Source: a virus. From it: a DNA stretch of 64,000 nt. Positions 22,911-60,070 of the stretch are shown here, one piece after another; the first letter of the stretch is position 1, and each line of letters begins with the position of its first letter. The notes beneath the pieces were generated by a model. That model was given only the letters and a program-made list of their open reading frames with translations, did no database searches and was not told where the DNA came from. Both the position numbers and the translations under genes were made by a program. The DNA is taken from the IMG/VR virus record IMGVR_UViG_3300042471_000228, positions 28,522 to 92,521 of that record; one strand, written 5' to 3'.

Positions 22911-23816
22911 TTAGACAGCGTTATTTATATTAAACTGAGTAGGGTGAGAATATGATTTGAACATGTCATAGTACTTAGAGTACATTGCTTTTCTATTCAT
23001 CGCCCATACTTTTTGCATTTCGGAGAAGTTCGGTGTATTCACAATACTTAATGCATTGTTTCTTGCTGCACGAAGTTCCGCATTAACCAACTGAAATTGA
23101 TTACTGACTGTAGGATTACCATCCATAAGCATATTCTCTAATATACGTTTCTTAAGAGCATACTCATAGAATTCATTTATCATCGGATGATCCACAACTA
23201 GCAAGTTACCATCATCGTCTTCCATATTACCTTGGTAGTTAATATATAAGTTTCCGGTTTCAATATTCGTAAATATAAAACCATCTTTGATATAACCTTC
23301 ATCTTTTCCTTTATAATTAAGATCTGCACAATCACAATTGATCATGTATGAATTCTTAAATCTTAAAGGTGTTAGCATATCGTAAGTGCGAGTTTCTGTC
23401 CCTATTACTTGAATCAAACTATATGTAGTACCACATTGAGTTAGACAAGTTGATTCTGGAGGAAGTGTTGTTCCTGAACAAAGATTTGATTCAACCCAAG
23501 GTTTATAACTAGGCACTACTTCTTGAATATTAGTACCTTGTGGTACTTGTGTAGTAATACTATATGATCCGCAGATTAATGCAAAGTTCATTACGTGAAA
23601 GTTCTCAGGAAGTCTTGCTCGATAGTGTTCAATCTCAAGGACTTTCTCCATGGTCTTTTCTACACGCAATCCTAGATCATAATTAACCTTCATGGCAATC
23701 TTAATAAGTTGCGCAGGTTCAATAGCACCATCTGTAGCAATACTTCTTAGATCCGTTCTAACGTCTTCTAATAAAGATTCAAATGTTCTATATTTGAGAG
23801 TGTAATTGTAGTTCAT
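22911..23816 (-). CDS. tail tube/ring-type virion protein, 301 aa
   Basis: The 301-residue frame starts MNYNYTLKYRTFESLLEDV. It sits between the 221-aa protein and the muzzle-like protein with 2-nt gaps on both sides, a tight co-translated group. The N-terminal third is helical; the centre holds several cysteines (CGSYSITTQ, CSGTTLPPESTCLTQC, INCDCADL); the C-terminal third is helical again (EYALKKRILENMLMDG). In crAss-like phages two tail-tube or ring proteins lie immediately upstream of the muzzle gene, so this is assigned mainly by position and size. Which ring or tube it is cannot be told from the sequence alone. Confidence 0.7.
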   Translation of the reverse strand: MNYNYTLKYRTFESLLEDVRTDLRSIATDGAIEPAQLIKIAMKVNYDLGLRVEKTMEKVLEIEHYRARLPENFHVMNFALICGSYSITTQVPQGTNIQEVVPSYKPWVESNLCSGTTLPPESTCLTQCGTTYSLIQVIGTETRTYDMLTPLRFKNSYMINCDCADLNYKGKDEGYIKDGFIFTNIETGNLYINYQGNMEDDDGNLLVVDHPMINEFYEYALKKRILENMLMDGNPTVSNQFQLVNAELRAARNNALSIVNTPNFSEMQKVWAMNRKAMYSKYYDMFKSYSHPTQFNINNAV

Positions 23817-23818
23817 AA

Positions 23819-24484
23819 TTATCTAAGTAAGCTTTGTTTATCAGCTGGTGCAGGATCTGTATTTATCTGCATGCTTCTCATGAAGTCATTTATAACCTGT
23901 TGTTCTATTTGTGCAAATAAATCACCTGGAATATTTAAGTATTGTGATTGAACAGATTGACACTCATTATCACAAGTTAATCCGGAAATCGATCCTTCAA
24001 ATATTCCATCTATCTGAGCACTGTCCCATTCTACATTAGGAATGAATAAGTACCCATCTAATAACCAGTAATACTTTTTCTTATTATATTTGAATCCAGA
24101 TGTTTTTTGTAATGACGTGTATAACTGAGGAGTGGTTCTAAATACTTCAACTGATCCATCTATTGATGCGACAGTTCTTAGTAATGGACCATTAGATCCT
24201 TCTAATATAGAGGGCAGCTTTTCTTTTGACCTTTTAATTTTAACACCAGACTGAACCTCACAACAAGCGGCAACTTTATCCACCTCAATAAGATCAATGC
24301 AAGGTATTCTTTTATATAAAGAATTAAACTTTGCTTGCGATGTTTGTCCATCTTGACGTTTGATAAACATCTTAGCATACTTAAGTATGTTACTGTAAAT
24401 CAAACGGTCTGTGATAAAAGAATCAGCATCAACAGCTTTGATTCCATTACGTACTCGTGATATTGCTTCAGCGATTGTATTCAT
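23819..24484 (-). CDS. tail tube/ring-type virion protein, 221 aa
   Basis: The protein begins MNTIAEAISRVRNGIKAVD and has a helical N-terminus followed by a beta-rich centre (YYWLLDGYLFIPNVEW). It contains two cysteine pairs (AACCEVQ and TCDNEC) and ends in a helix. Its start overlaps the stop of the 187-aa upstream gene by one base, and it is followed after 2 nt by the 301-aa gene. This order of two small proteins before a giant muzzle protein is typical of crAss-like phages, where they form the ring or tube below the portal. The assignment rests on gene order and composition; I could not verify it against a family profile. Confidence 0.7.
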   Translation of the reverse strand: MNTIAEAISRVRNGIKAVDADSFITDRLIYSNILKYAKMFIKRQDGQTSQAKFNSLYKRIPCIDLIEVDKVAACCEVQSGVKIKRSKEKLPSILEGSNGPLLRTVASIDGSVEVFRTTPQLYTSLQKTSGFKYNKKKYYWLLDGYLFIPNVEWDSAQIDGIFEGSISGLTCDNECQSVQSQYLNIPGDLFAQIEQQVINDFMRSMQINTDPAPADKQSLLR

Positions 24485-27842: not shown

Positions 27843-30800
27843 CTAGTTATAGTCAATACAACATTGACAGTCATCAAAAATTTGTTTAATAGTTACCTCC
27901 ATTATATCTCCTGATGTAGCTACTTCCGCAGCAGTCCAACATAAACCTGGTAACTCATTTAATTCAATAGATTTACTCAATGCTGCAGGTTCTGCAAAAA
28001 CTTCATTATCTGTATACAAGAAGATTGTAGGATCATCGCATCTTGAGAGTTTGTATAAGAATCCCGCACATGTTACACAATCTGCAAAAACATCCATTAC
28101 AATAACATCTGAGAAATTTAAAGGATCACAATAGTCTTCAGTAGTACTTTGGAAAATAAAACATCCTTCAACAGGAAGTCCATCTACTTGAATTTTTGCA
28201 ACTTGTCCTGGAACTAAATCATTAGTTGTACAATATAATGGAGTTTCAAATGTTGTGTCATCACAAGCATAAACTTTTGTTATACAAGGACTTATATCTA
28301 AGACAGATTGACAATTACAGCGAACATTGTCACCATCTTGTACAGGTGTGCAATCTCCACAATCTACAGGAATAATTGCTGTACATAGATTAGATGCAAT
28401 TGCAGGTGCCATTATATCAGCTGCATTATCGAAAGTCTCTATGTAAAAATCAGGATTTCCATCAACTCTAAGACTAGTCATTGGAATCCAAGATGGATCA
28501 ATATCTGCGGGATCACAATCCCATATACCAAGGGGATTAAATCTTCCACTAGTGTCCCCCACACAGTTAGTAGTACTACTGGTTAAAGTGATATTATTAT
28601 ATGCTATAGGTAATACTGCCCAAGATCCTACAACACTACTAAAAAGATTATAATCTAATGGATTATTACAGTATTTATACAGGAGTCGTCCAAAAGGTAT
28701 ACCTTCTGCTTGACCTGTTAATCCAAGATTACCTAAGTTTCCTCCAACTATAGGATTAGGTGGTTCATAACCAGATACTACATAATAATCTGCATTTGTT
28801 GGATCTTCTGAAGGTGGAAATATATGAGTCATCTGATCTACGAATCCTAAAATTAGTGCTCTATGTGTCAAGTAAGATTCAACTCCAAAAGCATTACCTG
28901 GATTCTGAGTTGGTGTAAGTAACTGCTGAAATGTATAAGCGGGTCCTCCATTAGGAAGTGATGATAAAAATCCTGCAGTAATAGATACACCATCCAATGT
29001 TTTAATATCATGTGCAACTTCCATTGCAGTTTTAAATGTCATACATCGATCACAATCTGTTAAAGTGGAGGAAATTCTTCCACAAGGTGTATTGTAATCA
29101 TGATACATAGGATAGGTTCTTGTTGGTGTATCTACTTCATATATAATACCTGAAGGAACTACTGTAGCATTACTTGCAAAAACACTACCTCTTAAAGTAG
29201 ATAGATTACTTGCATTAAAATAAGGTGCAGCTGTAACTTTAATTGTAGTACCATCAACAACTTCTAATATAACACCTTCATTATCTATATTAAATTTGTA
29301 TTGAGGAGGCATTCCAGAAAGCAACTTTATAGTCATACCTGCTTCAAGACCTGCTGTAGTATTTAAGGTTAACGTAGCATATTCAGGATAAGATTGTGCA
29401 ACATTACCCAATAGTATATTGGCAGCTGTATTTGTACTATCTGCTGTAGTAGTGTATTGAACTTTTGTACCATCTGTAATAGTTATTAGATTTTCAAATG
29501 GAACAGAACCTTGTGCATGTTCTACACCATTCGGCCAACCATCAGTTAATATTACCATCTTTTTAATACTATTAGGATTGTAATAATTAGTATTAAATAA
29601 AAGATTCCTAGCAGCTGCTAAACCTATTGCAGTATTTGTTCCTCCTGGAGATGAAGCTACAAAAGTATTTATGTGATCAATGCAGCCTTGTAAGTCAGAT
29701 GTTGGTGTTAATTGACTTACTAAATATGTACTAAATGTAATAGCAGCTATCCTAAGTTTGTTTTGATTTATTAAATCTACTATAGCAGCTTGATAAAAGA
29801 ACCCAGAATTAGGATCTGTAAAAAAGTTTTTTAAACCAGCAATTTCTGTTCCATTAACTGAAGGACCTACGTCAATAGCAAACACAAGATCAATAGATGG
29901 ACAATCGCATTCTCCTTCACAAATACACTGCTCTTCATCTGGATCATATGTAAATCCAGCAGGACAGACTAGATCTCCAACACTTGTACCAATACATTGA
30001 TTACTATAAATATCTTGAATATATTGAGGAGGGCATTGATCGCATTGATACCATTCTGTTTTAAAATCTAAAATTTGATTTCCTGTATTTAGTAAATACT
30101 GTGATGTTAAAGCACCATCAAAACTTATATATAGATCTAATCCTTGTGTAAAATACAAACCTGGATAAACAGATGTCTCATCATCAAATCCAATCAGTTT
30201 ATTTACTGGATTTGTTGTATTACCAGTAGGTACTTGAATAACAGACCAAGTGGATCCTAAATCTTCGGATACTATAATTTCACCAGGCACATTGTTTATA
30301 CAAAATAACTTACCTTTAGAAAAAGTAAGTGCTATAGGAAAATTTAATATAAACTGTGAAGGAAACGTATATACAGGATTGAATACAGCGCCATCATTAG
30401 TTGATTTAAATATTCCAGTTCGTGTAACAGTTACAATTGCATCGTTAACAAAATCCGCAAATAAGTTTTGAACTATCGTTCCACTTACAGGTGCAGATAT
30501 TGCATTAGGTAAAAGTTCCCATGTTATACCACCATCTAAAGTTTTAAATAATTGAGGAATAGCTGTTGAAGAACTTAGACAAATGTAACCAGATGAAATA
30601 CTATTAAAAGAAAGAGCTATTTTACTAATCGTAGCTCCTATAAAATACAGAGTAGATAGATCTACTAATAAATCAAATGTTAGTCCTGAATCAGTAGATA
30701 GAAAAATATAATTAGTATCATAGATTAGTATCCTCTCAGAACTAAGATACAAGACACCTGATCCGTTATTTGGATTTAAGTTTATAGTAGAACTATACGT

Positions 30801-31049
30801 AAACCAATCTCCTATAGGAGTATTAAAAGTAAGACCATAATCATTTGATACAGCAATCTGTGTAGTATTTGTAGCCGGATCAGTTCCTGCAAAAATAACA
30901 TTGTTACCATTATTAGGATCTATTCCAATAACAACACTATATCCTGAGAATGCACCAGTTAATGCTGAAGATTCTGTAAAAGATAAACCATCTAAACTAT
31001 AATTACATGATCCTGTATCTTTTAAATGATAATAGCTTTTAATTCCCAT
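27843..31049 (-). CDS. adhesin-like virion protein: Asp-box propeller plus VWA domain, 1068 aa
   Basis: Residues 1-330 contain five or six Asp-box (BNR-type) motifs of the form S/T-x-D-x-G-x-T-F/W, at about 68, 118, 169, 216, 261 and 308, indicating a beta-propeller. A short Cys-rich linker (330-385) leads into a von Willebrand A domain at about 386-560. Its MIDAS reads Asp393-Val-Gly-Pro-Ser397, Thr471 and Asp503, canonical except that the first Ser is Gly. The C-terminal 200 residues are again Cys-rich. A metal-dependent surface ligand is the likely role. It lies 1 nt after a 46-aa zinc-finger-like gene. The domain calls come from visible motifs; the ligand is unknown. Confidence 0.8.
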   Translation of the reverse strand: MGIKSYYHLKDTGSCNYSLDGLSFTESSALTGAFSGYSVVIGIDPNNGNNVIFAGTDPATNTTQIAVSNDYGLTFNTPIGDWFTYSSTINLNPNNGSGVLYLSSERILIYDTNYIFLSTDSGLTFDLLVDLSTLYFIGATISKIALSFNSISSGYICLSSSTAIPQLFKTLDGGITWELLPNAISAPVSGTIVQNLFADFVNDAIVTVTRTGIFKSTNDGAVFNPVYTFPSQFILNFPIALTFSKGKLFCINNVPGEIIVSEDLGSTWSVIQVPTGNTTNPVNKLIGFDDETSVYPGLYFTQGLDLYISFDGALTSQYLLNTGNQILDFKTEWYQCDQCPPQYIQDIYSNQCIGTSVGDLVCPAGFTYDPDEEQCICEGECDCPSIDLVFAIDVGPSVNGTEIAGLKNFFTDPNSGFFYQAAIVDLINQNKLRIAAITFSTYLVSQLTPTSDLQGCIDHINTFVASSPGGTNTAIGLAAARNLLFNTNYYNPNSIKKMVILTDGWPNGVEHAQGSVPFENLITITDGTKVQYTTTADSTNTAANILLGNVAQSYPEYATLTLNTTAGLEAGMTIKLLSGMPPQYKFNIDNEGVILEVVDGTTIKVTAAPYFNASNLSTLRGSVFASNATVVPSGIIYEVDTPTRTYPMYHDYNTPCGRISSTLTDCDRCMTFKTAMEVAHDIKTLDGVSITAGFLSSLPNGGPAYTFQQLLTPTQNPGNAFGVESYLTHRALILGFVDQMTHIFPPSEDPTNADYYVVSGYEPPNPIVGGNLGNLGLTGQAEGIPFGRLLYKYCNNPLDYNLFSSVVGSWAVLPIAYNNITLTSSTTNCVGDTSGRFNPLGIWDCDPADIDPSWIPMTSLRVDGNPDFYIETFDNAADIMAPAIASNLCTAIIPVDCGDCTPVQDGDNVRCNCQSVLDISPCITKVYACDDTTFETPLYCTTNDLVPGQVAKIQVDGLPVEGCFIFQSTTEDYCDPLNFSDVIVMDVFADCVTCAGFLYKLSRCDDPTIFLYTDNEVFAEPAALSKSIELNELPGLCWTAAEVATSGDIMEVTIKQIFDDCQCCIDYN

Positions 31050-33536: not shown

Positions 33537-33544
33537 CAAATTTA
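33537..33544 (-). promoter_or_regulatory. candidate -7 box before the 540-aa virion gene
   Basis: The minus strand reads TAAATTTG, matching TAnnTTTG, about 55 nt upstream of the start codon and overlapping the end of the 141-aa gene. No good -33 element is visible. Confidence 0.45.
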
Positions 33545-33967
33545 TTTCAAGAAAATTAACTTGTATTTAGTACTGTTAATCAATGACTTAATCTCATCGA
33601 TTGTGTTTATGATCTCTGAATGTTCACACATATCCTGAACCTTATTGCACATGTCATAAAGACCACGAAGATAAGTAACACATTCTTCCGGAGTACTACA
33701 TTTTGCTAGTTCAGCTGATGTAGGAAATTCTAGTAACTTCTCACTAAGACCTTGCCATTGTTCAGCAAGACTATCAGCAAAGTCACCAACTTCATCATAA
33801 AATGCACCCATTGTCATGTGTGCTGAATAACTTGTTGTTTTTAAATGTGCGATATGAATTTTAGTTACTCCATTTAGTAACTCAAATGTAAGAGCTGTGA
33901 TAGCTCCCGTCATTTGTTTCATTGCATTTCCGGTAGCTCCACCACCTTCAATTTTCAATTGTCTCAT
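33542..33967 (-). CDS. small helical virion or assembly protein, 141 aa
   Basis: The frame starts MRQLKIEGGGATGNAMKQM, 2 nt after the 235-aa ring-like gene. The protein is almost entirely helical, with a central segment (YSAHMTMGAFYDEVGDFADSL) and one cysteine-containing helix (MCNKVQDMCEHSE). The repeated pairing with the 235-aa gene and the tight spacing suggest it works with that protein in the neck or tail. I do not recognise its family with certainty. Confidence 0.65.
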   Translation of the reverse strand: MRQLKIEGGGATGNAMKQMTGAITALTFELLNGVTKIHIAHLKTTSYSAHMTMGAFYDEVGDFADSLAEQWQGLSEKLLEFPTSAELAKCSTPEECVTYLRGLYDMCNKVQDMCEHSEIINTIDEIKSLINSTKYKLIFLK

Positions 33968-33969
33968 TA

Positions 33970-34677
33970 TTAACTATTTTCTTGTACTGATTGTTGGGAT
34001 ACTTGATATTGAGTCATGTATTCAATATCTCCGGAAAGAATGTTAACCGCAGCATCTACTAGAATCTCAGCAATATCATCTTTAAATTCACAAAGTACAT
34101 CTGTTGTAGACTGGGTTGTTGTATAAGGATCTACACATCCATTTAATTCCACAAAAGTAGGAAGTCTATAATACATGAGTTTAACCTCATGCATTTCAAA
34201 ATCATTGTTTGTATAGATACGAACTTTGTTACCTACTAGGGTACAGAAGGTTTCTCCCCATTCAAAACTAGGTTTTTTTAACTCGTCTGATAGGAGTAAT
34301 GGAACATTCTCTTCCTCTGCAAGGTATGTAATAGTCATTGCCATAGGATTGTCACAACAACCTTTATTAGCATGACCATTAATACGTTTAAAGAATAAGT
34401 AATCTGCAGGAAGATCATCAGACTCCATATAAAGATCTTTCTTTTTTAGAGTTACGTTCTTTTCCTTTAGTAATCTTTGCAAGTCATCAATGCGCATTTT
34501 AGTTTGCTCATCACCAGTTTTGGTGATATTTACACCTTGTACTTGACGACGTATCCACTCTACTTGAGCTTTATTAAATGCTTCAACGATCTGCCAACAT
34601 TGTAGATTGTCATAATCCTGACTATCTAACTTGTTCAGACGTTGTTTAATTTTTAACTGTAGAGTAGTGTTATTCAT
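33970..34677 (-). CDS. ring/neck-type virion protein, crAss-like conserved, 235 aa
   Basis: The N-terminus (IKQRLNKLDSQDYDNLQCW, then EAFNKAQVEWIRRQV) and the segment KTGDEQTKMRIDDL match what I remember of a conserved crAss-like neck or ring protein. Residues 1-85 are helical, then a beta core with a short Cys motif (NKGCCDNP), then a C-terminal helix (DIAEILVDAAVNILSG), an arrangement common in head-completion and connector proteins. It lies downstream of the capsid genes. The role is by family memory and position. Confidence 0.75.
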   Translation of the reverse strand: MNNTTLQLKIKQRLNKLDSQDYDNLQCWQIVEAFNKAQVEWIRRQVQGVNITKTGDEQTKMRIDDLQRLLKEKNVTLKKKDLYMESDDLPADYLFFKRINGHANKGCCDNPMAMTITYLAEEENVPLLLSDELKKPSFEWGETFCTLVGNKVRIYTNNDFEMHEVKLMYYRLPTFVELNGCVDPYTTTQSTTDVLCEFKDDIAEILVDAAVNILSGDIEYMTQYQVSQQSVQENS

Positions 34678-35020: not shown

Positions 35021-35272
35021 TTAACACTTCCATTTACGGAGTGACTTATTAATTCTGCTGTTAGGATCATTAGCTGTCTTAGATGAGGTATTCTTCTTCT
35101 TCATACCTTCCATTCTAGCACAGAATGATCTCTTTCTAGGACCACCTTCTGGTTGTGGTGCTTTTAAATCTGAACCAGGATTCTGTCTTTCATAAGACTT
35201 TCTTCCTTTTTCATTAAGACCACCAGAAGGTGACTTACCAGCTTTACGAGTCCATGCAGCAGATTTCGCCAT
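35021..35272 (-). CDS. 83-aa small basic protein, DUF6321-like
   Basis: The sequence pattern AWTRKAGKSPSGGLNEKGR, then SFCARMEGMKKK, ANDPNSRINKSLRKWKC, matches a small family I remember as DUF6321, found in many large phages and some algal viruses. Conserved Trp, Gly-Gly-Leu and the final RKWKC are all present. It overlaps the stop of the 48-aa gene by one base. The family has no established function; its presence in a virion gene block and high positive charge suggest a packaged nucleic-acid-binding protein. Confidence 0.75.
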   Translation of the reverse strand: MAKSAAWTRKAGKSPSGGLNEKGRKSYERQNPGSDLKAPQPEGGPRKRSFCARMEGMKKKNTSSKTANDPNSRINKSLRKWKC

Positions 35273-35418
35273 TACTTCTTTTTCTTACGCATTAGCATTT
35301 TCTCGCGCTTCTCTTCTTTCTTACCCTCAGTCTTTTCATGCTTCATAGCAGCAGACTTAGAAGAATAGCGCTCTTCTGCTTTAGTACCTTTGTACTCAAT
35401 GATCTTTTTCTTTTTCAT
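35272..35418 (-). CDS. 48-aa lysine/glutamate-rich small protein
   Basis: The frame runs from MKKKKIIEYKGTKAEERYSS to LMRKKKK. More than a third of residues are Lys or Arg and it is probably a single charged helix. Its start follows the stop of the LCIB-like gene by 1 nt, and its stop overlaps the start of the 83-aa gene by 1 nt, so it is translationally coupled on both sides. No family recognised. Confidence 0.6.
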   Translation of the reverse strand: MKKKKIIEYKGTKAEERYSSKSAAMKHEKTEGKKEEKREKMLMRKKKK

Positions 35419-35419
35419 A

Positions 35420-36379
35420 TTACAATCCTTCTAAAAATTCAGTTGTTAAATCTTCCCATTCTCCAACACTATTATATTTTTGAAATGATGTTACATCAAC
35501 ATAAGCATTAAATCCATCATCAGTATTTATAAATGTACCACTACAATAAAACACATCTGTATTAGCTGGAACATTTGGGGTAACAATACCACTAGCACCA
35601 GTTAAAAAAGCATCTGAAGCTAATCTTATTTTTTCAGTAGCATAAAACATTTGAGCACCATAAGTTAGTTCAGCTGCAAGATCTGCTTTAAATGGAAATA
35701 ATATATCACATAAGGTATAGTATTGATAATTATTTGGAAACTCTGCAGTATCTGGTGCAGCAACACTACCAGCAACCCAGTTAATAGCTGTTGCTACTGC
35801 ACCACAAGTATTATCTTCAAGAGATTGTTCTTCAGATTTACCTCTTCTCCATATTCTACCTACATTACCAGCTCTTGATATTCCTATATGCGGCATATTA
35901 ATCATAAACAATCCACCCTGCGTAGTGGTTGTAACATGTGATCCCCAAGCTTGTATACCTAGTATACCTGTATGTGGGTAACCAGCTAAACCACCAGACA
36001 TAAATGCACCCAAGAATTGATTTTGAGATGCAGGTGTTTGACCAATGTTTGAGATGTCTGAGTAAATAGGACCATCAACATCATCAGAACAAATTGAATT
36101 TGACAATACAATATTATCAGGAGTATATCCTTTAGATCTAATAAAGTCTTTAGCATGTGTACCGAATATTTCAGCAGAAACAGCATTAGGATAAGTTGAC
36201 TTTACAGTATTATCATAATCTATAGGATTAGGTGATCTTTCAATCAATCCTTCAGTCGATCCTTCAATTACATGAACCCATGGTCCAGGAGCGGGTTGTT
36301 TATATGCTTTTATTAAACTTCCTGGAACAAATTCATCTGTTTTGCGATTCTTTAACGCAAATGCTTTTAGTTTAGTCAT
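35420..36379 (-). CDS. LCIB/theta-carbonic-anhydrase-like protein, 319 aa
   Basis: The motif order matches the LCIB (limiting-CO2-inducible B/C, theta-type carbonic anhydrase) family as I remember it: Cys97-Ser-Asp99-Asp, then FMSGGLAGYPHTGILG (126-141), His148, PHIGIS (163-168) with GNVGRIWRRG, and CGA with Cys192. Cys97, His148 and Cys192 would be the zinc ligands. The Arg usually paired with the Asp after the first Cys is not evident, so activity is uncertain. The C-terminal 110 residues are extra and beta-like. It lies inside the virion block, flanked by tiny basic genes (it overlaps the 109-aa stop by 1 nt). A metal-binding or enzymatic virion component is the inference. Confidence 0.55.
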   Translation of the reverse strand: MTKLKAFALKNRKTDEFVPGSLIKAYKQPAPGPWVHVIEGSTEGLIERSPNPIDYDNTVKSTYPNAVSAEIFGTHAKDFIRSKGYTPDNIVLSNSICSDDVDGPIYSDISNIGQTPASQNQFLGAFMSGGLAGYPHTGILGIQAWGSHVTTTTQGGLFMINMPHIGISRAGNVGRIWRRGKSEEQSLEDNTCGAVATAINWVAGSVAAPDTAEFPNNYQYYTLCDILFPFKADLAAELTYGAQMFYATEKIRLASDAFLTGASGIVTPNVPANTDVFYCSGTFINTDDGFNAYVDVTSFQKYNSVGEWEDLTTEFLEGL

Positions 36380-36708
36380 TATTTCTTCTTTTTTACTGAA
36401 CCACCTTTTTTAAGTTCTTGTTCAGCGAGTTTCTGATTTCTAGTTTTACTACCAGTAAGTCTTGCTTTTTTATCTTTAAGCATCTCAGCTCTTTCAGATA
36501 ATCTTTGAGATTTTTCTGTTTGACCTATTGCTCTATTTTCCCAGTATCCAGCAGACGTATCTCCTTTTGAACTAGTTTGATTATACATATCAAGAGCACT
36601 TTTAGCTTTAGATTTAGCATTACTCGCTCGGTTCTCTACTCGATTGATTCTATTTTCAATGCGAGTAACTTTACCACCACCTTGTTTTTTAACTAGTTGT
36701 TTTGCCAT
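36379..36708 (-). CDS. 109-aa basic coiled-coil protein with KKGGSVKKKK tail
   Basis: I chose the ATG at 36708, giving MAKQLVKKQGGGKVTRIENR, because longer upstream versions run into the preceding 50-aa gene. The protein is a charged helix with heptad-like spacing (RIENRINRVENRASNAKSK) and ends ELKKGGSVKKKK. That tail resembles the 62-aa protein's KKGGAVKKRK and part of the 2258-aa protein. It overlaps the start of the LCIB-like gene by 1 nt. A DNA-condensing or scaffolding peptide is possible; no family is recognised. Confidence 0.65.
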   Translation of the reverse strand: MAKQLVKKQGGGKVTRIENRINRVENRASNAKSKAKSALDMYNQTSSKGDTSAGYWENRAIGQTEKSQRLSERAEMLKDKKARLTGSKTRNQKLAEQELKKGGSVKKKK

Positions 36709-36874: not shown

Positions 36875-37888
36875 CTAATTATTCCAATACTTTTCTACAG
36901 TTTTTGTAACTTCCATCAAAACTGATTCATTTAAAGGATTCTTCATATACTCAACAACTTCTGCAATATTACGTCCTAGTAATGATCCGGTCTTTTTATC
37001 GTAGATCATACCATCAGCTTTTGCTGTAAATACTTTATAATAAATTGCATCTTTAACAATACACTTCAATTTCAAAGTCTCCATGTCAAGATTACAAGTA
37101 TCGATAAACTCTTGAGCAGCACGCTTAGCATTACGCTCAGCACCATCACCCATTACAAACTTATCCATCATATCATAGATAACATCAATAGGAGTTGACT
37201 TACGATAAGTAGCACCAGCAACGTCCACCAACTTACCTACATAGAATAACTTATTAGTATTCTTGTCAGAAAGTTTTTGAAGTTCTGCAAGAGCTTTGTT
37301 ACGAAGTTTCTTAAGCTCTGTTCTTGTAGAAGCTGTATCTTCGTATCTATCTAAATAGAATTTAGGAGCACGTGGTCTAGATTTTGCATCTTCATATGAC
37401 TTTGAAATAATACTAAAACCACCTGCTTCAATTGCAAATATTTTAATAAGATCATAAGGATCTTTTGTAGGATCAAGATTTACTGGAGTATTACCACAAC
37501 GCATTGTGATCTTTGACCAGAAGTCGTCATTATCCGGACGTAGTAATTTTACTTTATTCCAGAATTCCACATCGTCAGGATTAATAACATTTGCTGCAAG
37601 TTGTTTCTCTAACTCACATACAACGTTTCTGATTTCTCTAACTTTAGCTTCTTTTACTTCAGGATCCTTAATCAATTTGATCTCAGGAGCAAATTCATTA
37701 AGACCTGTAACATAACGCTTGATTCCGTTATGCTCAATACAAGCTAATTGTTCTTCGTGATAAACACCTTCAAATAGTGCTAGTCCATAATTTTGAAGAC
37801 CCATATTATCAACGGACTGATTGATGTAAGGTTTAACTGCAATAGGACCGCGTTTAGAGATCGGTTCCTGTACCATTGTGAAACTCAT
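36875..37888 (-). CDS. conserved protein downstream of the capsid gene, 337 aa
   Basis: The protein starts MSFTMVQEPISKRGPIAVK. It has an N-terminal beta/alpha region, a helical middle rich in Lys and Glu (EVKEAKVREIRNVVCELEKQ), and a C-terminal segment (LKCIVKDAIYYKVFTAKADG, DKKTGSLLGRN). It is preceded by the leader AAAAACCAACAAAATT and a TATATTTG box, just after the capsid-gene terminator. Its place immediately after the major capsid gene suggests a head-associated or accessory capsid protein, but no family function is known to me. Confidence 0.7.
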   Translation of the reverse strand: MSFTMVQEPISKRGPIAVKPYINQSVDNMGLQNYGLALFEGVYHEEQLACIEHNGIKRYVTGLNEFAPEIKLIKDPEVKEAKVREIRNVVCELEKQLAANVINPDDVEFWNKVKLLRPDNDDFWSKITMRCGNTPVNLDPTKDPYDLIKIFAIEAGGFSIISKSYEDAKSRPRAPKFYLDRYEDTASTRTELKKLRNKALAELQKLSDKNTNKLFYVGKLVDVAGATYRKSTPIDVIYDMMDKFVMGDGAERNAKRAAQEFIDTCNLDMETLKLKCIVKDAIYYKVFTAKADGMIYDKKTGSLLGRNIAEVVEYMKNPLNESVLMEVTKTVEKYWNN

Positions 37889-37970: not shown

Positions 37971-39593
37971 TTAGAATGAACCTCCGGTGATCGGGTTACG
38001 CATAACAATCTTCAACACCTTGGTTGGGTCTTTAACCCAGATAGCAGGCATCATTTGAGTCATGAATACGCGATATCCATTGAATTGACCAGAAGACTGG
38101 AATCCTTGAGTACGTCCCATGTAATCCATGGTTCCGTTTTGGTACCACCACTTCAATTGATTATCCCAACCCAACTTCAACATATAGATGTTATCGTTAG
38201 TATTGTCAGTGATATCAAAGATAATGAAGTTATAAGAAGACAATGGGAAACCATCGATGATTGGGTTTTCAATGTCGTTAGTATGCAAGTTGTCGAACGC
38301 TGGGTTCAATACAAACTTAACGTTTGCCAAGAATGGGATAACGTAAGAAGTGTAAGCAAAACCGAAGTTCAAATCCATACCTTTACCAGTGATTGCACCG
38401 ATATCAGCAGCTTGGATCAACAAACCAGAATTGATTGCTTCTTTCTTAATAGCTTCGTTAACCATGCGCATACCACCCATACCAGTTTGTACGATCAATT
38501 GACGCTTAGGATCTGGTCCTTGGAAGTCAACTTTACCAGCATAGAAGTTATAGATTTCAGAACGGAACAAGTCCAAAGTGAAACCAGATTTGTTGTATAC
38601 ACGCTTGAAAGAGTTATCCAACTGTCTCCACAAACCGACAGACAAACGCAAATCGTCTGGACCATCTTGACGAACACGACCACCTTGTCCCCACATCAAG
38701 TAAGTCTCGATGTCAGATGCAACTTTGGTCAAGTGAGCTGCTTCCATAGCAGTCAAGAAAGTACGAGACAATGAACCGTTACCCATTGCACGCTTAACAT
38801 AATCCTTACCCATCTTAGATACCATAGTATCCATAGAAGTAATAGAAGGATCAGTAGTTTTATCAAAGTTTCTCCAGATCTCTACAACAGGAACAGTACC
38901 ATCAGCGTTCATACCACCTTTGATCATCAAGTCAGCACGAGATGAAACAGAATAGTGAACGTGAGCTTCAGCACCACCTACGAAGTTGTAGTATTCACGG
39001 AAACCAGATTGGATTTGAATGTCAGAGAAACGCTCTCCGTACTCACCACGTGCAGAACCTTTACGGAACAATTTGTCACCAGGTTGCAAATACAAAGTGG
39101 TGTCAATACCTGCTGTGTTGTCATTATTAACCAACTGAACAGTGTAGATAAATCCATCACCTGTTGGGATGATATCATCTACAGTGATGTACATTTCCAT
39201 TCCGTTGTACTTATCATAAGTGATAATATCACCATGACCGAACTCACGACGTGAGATCTTAACTTGGAATGTTGTACCATCAGTACCTACGTTAGTACCT
39301 TGAGTGGTTTCAACGGTGTCAATAACGTAAGGAAGATCTTGTACAACTGGTGTTTGCCACTTGTACTCTCCACGAGCGTTATCGACTGTGATTACGTTCT
39401 TTCCACCGAAGCTAGACATTTGATACAAAGGCATTTCTACTTTCTGAACCATTGCCCACAAGTCAACTGGTCCTAGATCCATAGGTTCTGCATTTCTCAA
39501 CATGTTAACCAAGTGGTAAGAATCTACGTGTGAACTAGCTGCGTAGTTGGTATCTCGTAGAAATATACCATTGTTTAAAACTGGAGTTGCCAT
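37971..39593 (-). CDS. major capsid protein, HK97-fold expected, 540 aa
   Basis: The protein starts MATPVLNNGIFLRDTNYAASSH. The regions VDLWAMVQKVEMPLY, YKWQTPVV, MNADGTVPVVEIWRNFDKT and YVIPFLANVKFVLNPAFDN fit a phage major capsid protein as I remember from large Bacteroidota phages; length is typical. Its codons end in C more often than its neighbours' (aac, ttc, atc), consistent with very high expression. It follows the acidic scaffold candidate, portal and terminase in the usual order, and ends at a strong terminator. The HK97 fold is expected from family, not proven here. Confidence 0.85.
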   Translation of the reverse strand: MATPVLNNGIFLRDTNYAASSHVDSYHLVNMLRNAEPMDLGPVDLWAMVQKVEMPLYQMSSFGGKNVITVDNARGEYKWQTPVVQDLPYVIDTVETTQGTNVGTDGTTFQVKISRREFGHGDIITYDKYNGMEMYITVDDIIPTGDGFIYTVQLVNNDNTAGIDTTLYLQPGDKLFRKGSARGEYGERFSDIQIQSGFREYYNFVGGAEAHVHYSVSSRADLMIKGGMNADGTVPVVEIWRNFDKTTDPSITSMDTMVSKMGKDYVKRAMGNGSLSRTFLTAMEAAHLTKVASDIETYLMWGQGGRVRQDGPDDLRLSVGLWRQLDNSFKRVYNKSGFTLDLFRSEIYNFYAGKVDFQGPDPKRQLIVQTGMGGMRMVNEAIKKEAINSGLLIQAADIGAITGKGMDLNFGFAYTSYVIPFLANVKFVLNPAFDNLHTNDIENPIIDGFPLSSYNFIIFDITDNTNDNIYMLKLGWDNQLKWWYQNGTMDYMGRTQGFQSSGQFNGYRVFMTQMMPAIWVKDPTKVLKIVMRNPITGGSF

Positions 39594-57310: not shown

Positions 57311-60070
57311 TTATACAGCGTATGGAGCACAAAATTTAATTATTTTAGTGGGATTTCCACCACTTGAATAAATGAAAGGATACAATGATCCTCCATCTAT
57401 AGGTGGTCCATAACTGAAATTACTAAGTATGGAATTAACAAAATACGATTGACCCGAAGATGTACCTGCAATAATATCGCCTAAAAATTCATCAGTAGTT
57501 AAATTATAACAACTAAAAGCTGTAGTCAAAGATGTTGTTACTTCTGACCAAGTATTTTTTCTATAGAAAAGAATTCTATTACCATTAACCTGTCTTTCTA
57601 TCATGAATCCACAATTTCCTATAGTTCTTGTTAATAATGGTGTAAAGCTAGTATATTCCATTTCATAAAACTTCCCTTCTAAAGAATTAGTTACAAAATA
57701 AGTACCTTCTTCGGAAGCTGCAATTGTTAGTATACTACCTACAATTGTTGGACCTGTACCCATGTCAGGAATAACTTCTGTACCAAACTCACGTTTTGAG
57801 TATGTTCCATCAGTTAAATTAACCAAATATAAATATGGTATTTCTCCTACAGAATATCTTGATGGTCTAATTAACATATTTCCTGTTTGGTCAGCAAATT
57901 CGTACTTAAAACCTGCATCACTTGCTGCATCAACACCAGTCCCAATACCTATAAATGTTACCTCTGCAGTCATATTAGTACCCTCTATATAATCTATAGA
58001 ATCTAAAGTTTCTAAATCATGTATTATTATATTTAATGATCTTTGATTATTTACAAATGGAGCAAGCGAATTAGTGATACCATATAAAGAACCATCGTAA
58101 ACATAAAACTGGTATCTACTATATGATGTTGCTGGATCTTCATAAGTAACTATATCATTTTGAACAATACTTTTTACAGTTGTTGTATTTGCTGTTATAT
58201 CGTACTTAACTATATGTTCAGCATTTCCTAAATAGCTTTCTACACCAGTTCCATCAGTTCCTGCTGTTTCACCATACGTAAAGTATAAACAATTGTTTGC
58301 ACTATTATAAGCAAGACCCATACCCATAGTAAAACCTCTATCGGGAGCTAATCTTGGTAAATTATCTTCATTAAGAATAACTGTAAACTGTTCTGTTGAT
58401 ATATCAAAAACACCTAACGATCTATCACCACCACTAGTTAACATATAAACTTTATTACCTAATCTTGCGGTATTTGCTGGAAAAATACCTGGTGTTACTT
58501 CAGTAATACCACCATTAGGGAATACACACTCAGGAGCAGGAGTAGGAGCAGTACCACAACATGTGTCAAACCAAGCAGTACCACTAAACATAAACAACTT
58601 GTTCAATGTATTATTAAAGTAGATGCTACCTGGTTCTGGATTTGCAGGGTGTGTTGGTTCAACTGGAATACTTAATCTACCAGGAACATTCAATTGATTA
58701 ACTCTAACATGCTCACCAGCTTCAGGATTAGCTATGGTTACTCTAAGACCGGTCCAACTATTAGAATAAGCGGCATCTCCAAAAACATTATTACCACCTT
58801 GATCTAAGATCTGATTTACGAAAGTCATTGATCCATCAGGTGATTCTGTTGGATTCTCAGGATCATAAGTATTTACTAAATCATCAATATGGAAATTATA
58901 TACGTCCTCTAAACGATATAAGTACTTAGTAGTTGAGGTACCAGCCGCTTTGAAGTTATCCATGTTAACTTTTGTAGTACCGTCTACTCCATGAATATGA
59001 GCTGTATACTTACTAAGAAAAGTTGGTAAACCTGCACGATTACCAGGATCTTTAGAATAACAAGATATACCAGTAATATTCTCACCACCGGTAAACAAGA
59101 AACTTGTACCTTTAACGAATCCAGCATTATCTGATCCAATATCATTAATGGTAACAGTACCAGCTTGAGCAGGTAGAGTTATACCTAGTGAGTTAGGAAT
59201 ACTTGTTCTTACTTGGTTAGCTTCTGCTCCACAACTTGACATTGTTACAGAGTTAGCATTTCTCATCCAGTAACCAAGACCATTTGAATCTGATGCACAG
59301 TTACTAAGAGTAGAGTAGGTTGTATTATGAATAGAGAAACCAGCTAAGTAACAACCTGAAGCATAACATGTATCCAAGCTAGTACTAGTTGTAGAACCAG
59401 CAATATAGAATCCGTGACCACCTGCATTTCTAACACGAGTGTTTTGGATTTTAGATGCCATTCCACCATACATCATGATACCATGACGACGAGCTCCATC
59501 AATAAGAACTTCATTAATCCAAATATTGTTCAAGTTAGAACCAGATGCGTCAGGATTACCTTCAGTCAATAAGATACCACCAGAACCTTGTGTAGAATAT
59601 GAAACTGTTCCACCAGAACTAGTATAAACAGACTTAACACCTACAAGATCTACATTCATAATAGTAAGAGAATCAGACGATGTCCAACCATTACCTGAGT
59701 CAGGTGTTGTTATAATATGATAACCACCATTGGTACTAGTCATAACAAAACGAGTAGAACCATTTGTAGACAAGCTGTCTTTTGCAGATCTACTAACACC
59801 AGTGATTGTAACATTGGGAGCTTGAATGTCAAACATATTTTGACCACTGGCAGACATTGTAAAGTCTCCTTCTCCAAATAGGAAAGTGGTACCTGCTCTG
59901 CGAATAATTACAGTACTATCAATAGTTGCTGTCTTATAAGCACTGCAGTCAAATACTGTTCCTTCTGGATATACAGCACTAGATCCTGCATTTTGAAGTT
60001 TTGCAGTAAAAGTACTACCTGTAACATTCTGTATAGGAATTGTACCTTTTTGATTAATTGATAAAGCCAT
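57311..60070 (-). CDS. tailspike-like beta-helix protein with C-terminal propeller, 919 aa
   Basis: Residues about 1-470 form a parallel beta-helix of pectate-lyase type: rungs such as NIWINEVLIDGARRHGIMMY, IQNTRVRNAGGHGFYIAG, DTCYASGCYLAGFSI and LSNCASDSNGLGYW. A linker (GSIYFNNTLNKLFMFSGTAW) leads to a C-terminal beta-propeller-like half (ITEVTPGIFPANTARLG, SEEGTYFVTNS). Beta-helix tailspikes often bind or cut capsule polysaccharide. I cannot point to a catalytic residue, so depolymerase activity is inference. It follows the first gene of the arm by 3 nt. Confidence 0.78.
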   Translation of the reverse strand: MALSINQKGTIPIQNVTGSTFTAKLQNAGSSAVYPEGTVFDCSAYKTATIDSTVIIRRAGTTFLFGEGDFTMSASGQNMFDIQAPNVTITGVSRSAKDSLSTNGSTRFVMTSTNGGYHIITTPDSGNGWTSSDSLTIMNVDLVGVKSVYTSSGGTVSYSTQGSGGILLTEGNPDASGSNLNNIWINEVLIDGARRHGIMMYGGMASKIQNTRVRNAGGHGFYIAGSTTSTSLDTCYASGCYLAGFSIHNTTYSTLSNCASDSNGLGYWMRNANSVTMSSCGAEANQVRTSIPNSLGITLPAQAGTVTINDIGSDNAGFVKGTSFLFTGGENITGISCYSKDPGNRAGLPTFLSKYTAHIHGVDGTTKVNMDNFKAAGTSTTKYLYRLEDVYNFHIDDLVNTYDPENPTESPDGSMTFVNQILDQGGNNVFGDAAYSNSWTGLRVTIANPEAGEHVRVNQLNVPGRLSIPVEPTHPANPEPGSIYFNNTLNKLFMFSGTAWFDTCCGTAPTPAPECVFPNGGITEVTPGIFPANTARLGNKVYMLTSGGDRSLGVFDISTEQFTVILNEDNLPRLAPDRGFTMGMGLAYNSANNCLYFTYGETAGTDGTGVESYLGNAEHIVKYDITANTTTVKSIVQNDIVTYEDPATSYSRYQFYVYDGSLYGITNSLAPFVNNQRSLNIIIHDLETLDSIDYIEGTNMTAEVTFIGIGTGVDAASDAGFKYEFADQTGNMLIRPSRYSVGEIPYLYLVNLTDGTYSKREFGTEVIPDMGTGPTIVGSILTIAASEEGTYFVTNSLEGKFYEMEYTSFTPLLTRTIGNCGFMIERQVNGNRILFYRKNTWSEVTTSLTTAFSCYNLTTDEFLGDIIAGTSSGQSYFVNSILSNFSYGPPIDGGSLYPFIYSSGGNPTKIIKFCAPYAV

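Follow-up and report, generated by a model that had tools for sequence, protein, structure and literature searches.

Within the virion gene cluster of a phage lies a gene whose product resembles the LCIB/theta-carbonic-anhydrase (CA) proteins, and the question arises whether such a protein is an enzyme of the infected cell, a part of the virus particle or both. The window, i.e., the whole stretch of DNA that was analysed, comprises 64,000 nucleotides (positions 28,522 to 92,521) of the IMG/VR record IMGVR_UViG_3300042471_000228. The complete record (92,521 b) encodes homologs of the crAss001 portal protein, major capsid protein (MCP), gp33, R1 and R2, and weakly of the muzzle protein. The portal matches its crAss001 counterpart with an E-value of 2.7e-32; the MCP, gp33, R1 and R2 matches are weaker yet syntenic. 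TerL matches crAss-like records. Judged by gene homology and shared gene order, the source is a crAss-like phage. The genes and domains of the locus are the following.

37971..39593, minus strand: major capsid protein (MCP) gene (phrog_11589 major head protein, E 4.2e-32; crAss001 gp32)
36875..37888, minus strand: gp33-like protein gene adjoining the capsid gene, left border of a variable slot (BLASTP to crAss001 gp33, E 8.6e-6)
36379..36708, minus strand: upstream small basic gene (1-nt overlap, taATG, with the LCIB start)
35420..36379, minus strand: LCIB/theta-CA-fold protein gene (319 aa, ATG at 36379; Pfam PF18599, E 9.6e-28)
36242..36379, minus strand: N-terminal module, residues 1-46 (LKAFALKN...VPGSLIKAYKQPAPGPWVHV), proposed virion anchor (profile match, E 1.1e-19)
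35480..36166, minus strand: LCIB_C_CA core, residues 72-300 (Pfam profile 7-220/223; PtLCIB4 fold match, E 1.6e-13)
35272..35418, minus strand: downstream Lys-rich small gene (1-nt gap after the LCIB stop)
35021..35272, minus strand: DUF6321 protein gene, recurrent neighbour of viral LCIB genes (Pfam PF19846, E 1.9e-21; synteny)
33970..34677, minus strand: ring-like virion structural protein gene, right border of the variable slot (phrog_29507, E 6.7e-13; synteny)
33542..33967, minus strand: DUF5856/Dps-like protein gene, recurrent neighbour (Pfam PF19174, E 5.1e-22; phrog_858; synteny)

An earlier note on this DNA, made from the letters and their open reading frames, had described the frame at 35420-36379 and a series of motifs in it. 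The frame is real and the motifs occur in the order given: C97-S-D99, GGLAGYPHTG (129-138), H148, PHIGIS (163-168), GNVGRIWRRG (171-180) and C192-G-A. The gene also lies, as described, between the capsid gene and ring genes, with the MCP and gp33-like genes on one side and the ring-like gene on the other. The name 'ring-like' for the product of 33970-34677 is taken from synteny, the PHROG label being virion structural; clear R1/R2 homologs are found further on, at 22911-24484. Coupling by 1-nt overlaps to tiny basic genes had also been described. This is true of the upstream gene, but the downstream gene starts at 35418, after a 1-nt gap, and itself shares a 1-nt overlap with the DUF6321 gene. 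Elsewhere in the window, the tail region contains a gene (27843-31049) whose 1068-aa product has a VWA domain and weak BNR/sortilin repeats, and 57311-60070 encodes a 919-aa right-handed beta-helix protein that is likely a tail spike.

Membership of the LCIB/theta-CA family, proposed earlier from the motifs, is borne out by profile and fold alike. The protein matches the Pfam LCIB_C_CA model (PF18599) over residues 72-300 with 97.4 bits (E 9.6e-28; cut-off 25 bits). Pattern-based scans of IMG/VR yielded 37 loci first and then 65; of 47 viral relatives compared with this Pfam model, all 47 pass. By sequence, the nearest solved structures are 6kfs (5e-13), 9vzj (8e-13) and PtLCIB4 5b5y (6e-11), and a profile from 27 phage relatives reaches LCIC too, and LCIB more weakly. 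A first AlphaFold2 model, made with 27 viral sequences, had weak confidence near the first motif (pLDDT 71) and matched PtLCIB4 at E 6.8e-11. A second one, made with 47 viral sequences, has a pLDDT of 80.6 and a pTM of 0.76, with a poorly modelled loop at 112-126. The earlier note had suggested that a predicted structure be compared with theta-CA structures, and Foldseek with the second model indeed retrieves the LCIB fold: 5b5y (E 1.6e-13, TM 0.78 by target), 6kfs (E 4.9e-13), LCIB (E 2.9e-7) and LCIC (E 1.2e-6). Classical beta-CAs come next after the LCIB-type structures, at a non-significant level. That the phage protein is a true member of the LCIB family can be taken as practically certain.

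To place the zinc site, residues were counted along the HMMER alignment with PtLCIB4, and the S47R and H88A mutant chains served to anchor the count. The zinc ligands of PtLCIB4 are C46, H102 and C126 (legend in PMC6352938); residue roles follow papers later than the primary LCIB and theta-CA ones. The alignment pairs C46, D48, R52, H88, H102 and C126 of PtLCIB4 with C97, D99, G103, H148, H164 and C192 of the phage protein, and thus gives the following positions.

36089..36091, minus strand: Cys97, predicted zinc ligand 1 (PtLCIB4 C46; alignment; invariant in 55 viral sequences; PMC6352938)
36083..36085, minus strand: Asp99, Asp of the CxD motif (PtLCIB4 D48; invariant in 55 viral sequences)
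36071..36073, minus strand: Gly103, at the Cys+6 Arg position of the aligned cellular proteins (Gly/Ala in all viral members)
35936..35938, minus strand: His148, equivalent of the catalytic PtLCIB4 His88 (alignment with the 5b5z H88A mutant; invariant)
35888..35890, minus strand: His164, predicted zinc ligand 2 (PtLCIB4 H102; alignment; invariant; PMC6352938)
35843..35848, minus strand: Arg178-Arg179, RRG motif common to cellular LCIBs (R178 invariant, R179 R/K; alignment)
35804..35806, minus strand: Cys192, predicted zinc ligand 3 (PtLCIB4 C126; alignment; invariant; PtLCIB4 ligands from PMC6352938)

His148 had been named as a zinc ligand in the earlier note. This assignment was dropped, as the PtLCIB4 ligands align to C97, H164 and C192; His148 instead falls on His88, which is the mutated position of 5b5z. 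Besides the ligands, D99, D100, H148 and R178 are invariant in the 55 distinct viral sequences. Invariance is found in 32 of the 319 columns, so that the chance of six chosen positions (the three ligands, D99, H148 and R178) all being invariant is p ~6e-7. In eight close pairs dN/dS is 0.08-0.54, and the gene is therefore under purifying selection. The phage protein very probably binds zinc.

The part of the protein that precedes the LCIB domain connects it to a different set of proteins. Residues 1-46 follow the consensus LKxYxxx..G.iVPGSL.L...P..G.W.EV. This N-module opens 62/76 LCIB ORFs (overlapping loci included), and its profile also matches other ORFs of the LCIB loci. A dedicated scan combined with a profile search located it in 234 ORFs. 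Of these, 172 (131 distinct) have no LCIB part, and the module almost always begins at most 8 residues from a Met. In the proteins without LCIB, the module is followed by a Thr-rich linker, a PKD-like domain, LRR_5 (E 1.5e-25), Lcl_C (E 8.4e-10) or other display-type sequence. Such proteins are encoded in loci L070-L148 and L024-L059, for example at L088:5992-6633, L111:1477-2622 and L133:6246-7718. Judged by this distribution, the segment is a mobile N-terminal module; no database name was found for it. Because it has no relative in the PDB and no match in the sequenced phages, its role as a virion anchor is a proposal drawn from gene position and company. The suggestion that the gene has been recruited into the virion gene cluster, which relied on gene position, is strengthened by this shared display module.

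The LCIB core also occurs behind other N-termini. In L012-L015 it carries a different, fibre-like N-terminus instead of the N-module, and in L014 and L015 this N-terminus weakly resembles the start of a Flavobacterium phage tail fibre (65% over 23 aa, E 0.3). The phage record G005 (202,880 bases) has two tandem LCIB genes; a different N-terminal domain precedes the core in one of them, and the other lacks any extension. Tandem LCIB genes with different N-termini are located at L054:7593-9662 and L060:7584-9717, i.e., in this 202,880-base record and a related contig.

The preferred reading, with an estimated probability of about 60%, is that of a two-part accessory virion protein, in which the N-module serves as anchor and a zinc-binding LCIB-fold domain, displayed on or carried with the particle, acts on CO2/bicarbonate or a similar molecule. 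It starts from what was observed: the family and fold, the conserved metal and pocket residues, the sharing of the module, the genomic setting and the accessory distribution. The anchor (residues 1-46) would fix the protein to the particle, and residues ~50-319 would form the zinc-binding domain with the LCIB/theta (beta-like) CA fold. Zinc would be held by Cys97, His164 and Cys192, with Asp99, His148 and Arg178 lining the pocket. By analogy with known beta-type CAs the domain is probably dimeric. Its zinc site would work close to the host surface or immediately after entry, with CO2/bicarbonate or some comparable small molecule as its target. The parts of this reading differ in strength. Association with the virion is likely, going by gene position and the shared module, and the odds that the protein performs some catalysis are about even. 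CO2 hydration is a tentative assignment and the least certain, because all viral members have Gly/Ala in place of the Cys+6 Arg. This loss and the G005 copy without N-terminal extension count against a virion enzyme. Rather speculatively, the particles of some crass-like phages could bear a functional zinc carbonic anhydrase (or a zinc hydratase with altered properties) on a swappable N-terminal anchor, and local CO2/bicarbonate or pH could thereby be changed at the host surface or sensed during attachment.

Alternatively, though this is fairly unlikely, the LCIB fold could be a non-catalytic, zinc-stabilised binding domain that serves as adhesin or decoration, comparable to the LRR, Lcl_C and PKD-like domains found on the N-module. 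Every other nameable domain on this module is indeed adhesive or structural, and the viral members have lost the Cys+6 Arg throughout. The earlier note had already remarked, rightly, that the Arg paired with the Asp of the first motif is not evident: position 103 holds Gly or Ala in all 55 viral sequences versus Arg in 6kfs, 9vzj and 5b5y, a comparison with three solved cellular proteins that is not taken as universal in the LCIB family. A second candidate mark of a lost catalytic Arg, the S47R position, was dropped, since Ser98 aligns to PtLCIB4 Ser47 and PtLCIB4, carrying this Ser, is described as active (PMC9614477). The algal proteins LCIB and LCIC offer a precedent for a silent domain, as they have no CA activity despite a kept fold and zinc site (PMC5876011; PMC8825250). 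According to a review, their inactivity is caused by disorder of His162/161 and Arg194/193 (PMC5876011). Algal His162 probably corresponds to the His88 position, and the disordered Arg may belong to the RRG segment that is kept in the phage protein. Fold and ligands are thus no proof of catalysis, because the algal proteins are inactive with both kept. However, Asp99, His148 and Arg178 show the same invariance as the zinc ligands, although a protein that only binds, or a zinc site with a purely structural role, could do without them, and adhesin faces usually diverge faster. A working site is favoured over a bare binding domain because these pocket residues beyond the zinc ligands are strictly conserved.

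The genomic setting bears on the question whether the protein belongs to the particle at all. In ~25-30 loci the gene order is portal, scaffold, MCP, gp33-like, small basic genes, LCIB, DUF6321, ring-like, DUF5856/Dps-like, p540 and p185. In another, distantly related crass-like group (MCP 28%, TerL 29%), LCIB is located far from the MCP gene, and its cluster comprises DUF6321, a Dps-like gene and genes for N-module display proteins. The DUF5856/Dps-like gene (window 33542-33967, phrog_858) hence recurs beside LCIB in two distant crass-like groups. The LCIB gene is an accessory gene, as it is missing from the slot in 39/39 relatives with both borders (from 80 of the closest MCP relatives, 82-93%). 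The slot itself varies from 345 to 4611 nt and contains mostly small Lys-rich proteins. This hypervariable region between the gp33-like and ring-like genes (window:33970-37888; L168-L247) often includes a DUF6321 gene besides the short Lys-rich proteins, which are possibly packaged basic proteins. Crass-like phages are usually tied to Bacteroidota. By portal, the nearest sequenced isolate is Leptolyngbya phage Lbo-JY46 (L167, PP438436.1; 32% over 927 aa), in which the gp33-like and ring-like genes are directly adjacent with nothing between them. This phage, recorded from a cyanobacterium, has the portal, MCP, gp33-like and ring-like genes in common with the window.

An ordinary auxiliary metabolic enzyme would agree with part of this picture. 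Such an enzyme would be made late and stay free in the host cell, where it would raise CO2/HCO3- interconversion, and its place in the virion cluster would reflect late expression only. The accessory status of the gene suits it, as does the G005 copy without N-terminal extension, and since Lbo-JY46 infects a cyanobacterium, carbon metabolism could matter to the host. Nevertheless, this explanation is unlikely. Most members carry the N-module of display proteins and L012-L015 a fibre-like N-terminus, neither of evident use in the cytosol, and the distant crass-like genomes again place LCIB among N-module display genes although it lies far from MCP there.

Another possibility concerns the reaction and not the location. 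Some enzymes with the beta-CA fold use other substrates, of the COS, CS2 or cyanate type. The viral clade has two marks of its own, i.e., His136 in GGLxGYPHTG, where the cellular proteins have Phe, and an insertion at 111-114, a NIGQ segment that hardly varies. Together with the Cys+6 change from Arg to Gly/Ala, these systematic pocket changes would fit a zinc hydrolase with shifted chemistry, acting on e.g. COS, CS2 or cyanate instead of hydrating CO2. Yet the loop at 112-126 is poorly modelled, and this proposal is judged quite improbable. Chance resemblance without LCIB kinship, finally, has a negligible probability and was ruled out by profile (E 9.6e-28), sequence and fold (E 1.6e-13) matches to LCIB proteins, the Pfam model being passed by all 47 viral members compared with it.

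Returning to the reading of an anchored virion protein, its LCIB domain belongs to a lineage of its own. In the tree, a long branch (SH-aLRT 100) separates the viral sequences, which form a single clade, from three cellular ones; as these cellular rows are three PDB sequences only, the tree makes a separate viral clade visible but is too small to resolve its origin. None of the 47 viral members matches PHROGs, and the AlphaFold2 model has no match among the BFVD viral structures, because of which the family is apparently unnamed in phage resources. Tblastn with the phage protein and 6kfs gave no match in sequenced phages and plasmids, and LCIB/theta-CA relatives are absent from the 50,697 phage records searched. 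In the open literature, LCIB/theta-CA proteins were found from algae and other cells, none from a phage. Scans of viral contigs with the cellular alignment A2 found none, and scans of cellular genome contigs with alignments A1 and A2 gave no confirmed relative, although the patterns are short exact stretches and do not imply absence from bacteria.

A metabolic-enzyme fold is thus found as a swappable phage display part, with zinc and pocket residues kept behind at least three kinds of N-terminus. It raises the possibility that a zinc enzyme of carbon metabolism travels on or with the particles of some phages, and it makes a direct test possible of whether a zinc enzyme of inorganic-carbon chemistry is present on a phage particle. 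The widespread N-module additionally provides a handle for finding other display proteins of uncultured phages. Moreover, the catalytic requirements of theta-CAs can be studied with an LCIB variant that naturally lacks the Cys+6 Arg.

Among known systems, the LCIB/LCIC and PtLCIB family (PF18599; 5b5y, 6kfs, 9vzj, 5k5w, 5b5x) is closest to the phage protein in profile, fold, zinc ligands, Asp, the His88 equivalent and the RRG motif. The phage proteins differ from these cellular ones in forming a long-branch clade with Gly/Ala at Cys+6, His136, the NIGQ insertion and a fused phage N-module. A second comparison is with the crAss001 head-fibre proteins gp21 and gp29, which consist of a short N-terminal capsid anchor and a variable outer domain (PMC10172136). 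The phage protein likewise combines a short N-terminal segment with a variable display domain among virion genes; however, its N-module has no significant sequence similarity to gp21, and its cargo is a zinc-enzyme fold. The N-module display proteins of environmental phages have the 46-residue N-terminus in common with it, but theirs carry Thr-rich, LRR_5, Lcl_C or PKD-like sequence and not LCIB. Lastly, DabA2, the beta-CA-like subunit of DAB2, is alike in its Cys-His-Cys zinc site with Asp and in its beta-CA-like architecture. DabA2 keeps the Asp-Arg dyad (D353-R355) and misses the transition-state-stabilising His/Gln, whereas the phage protein has the opposite pattern (PMC13144422).
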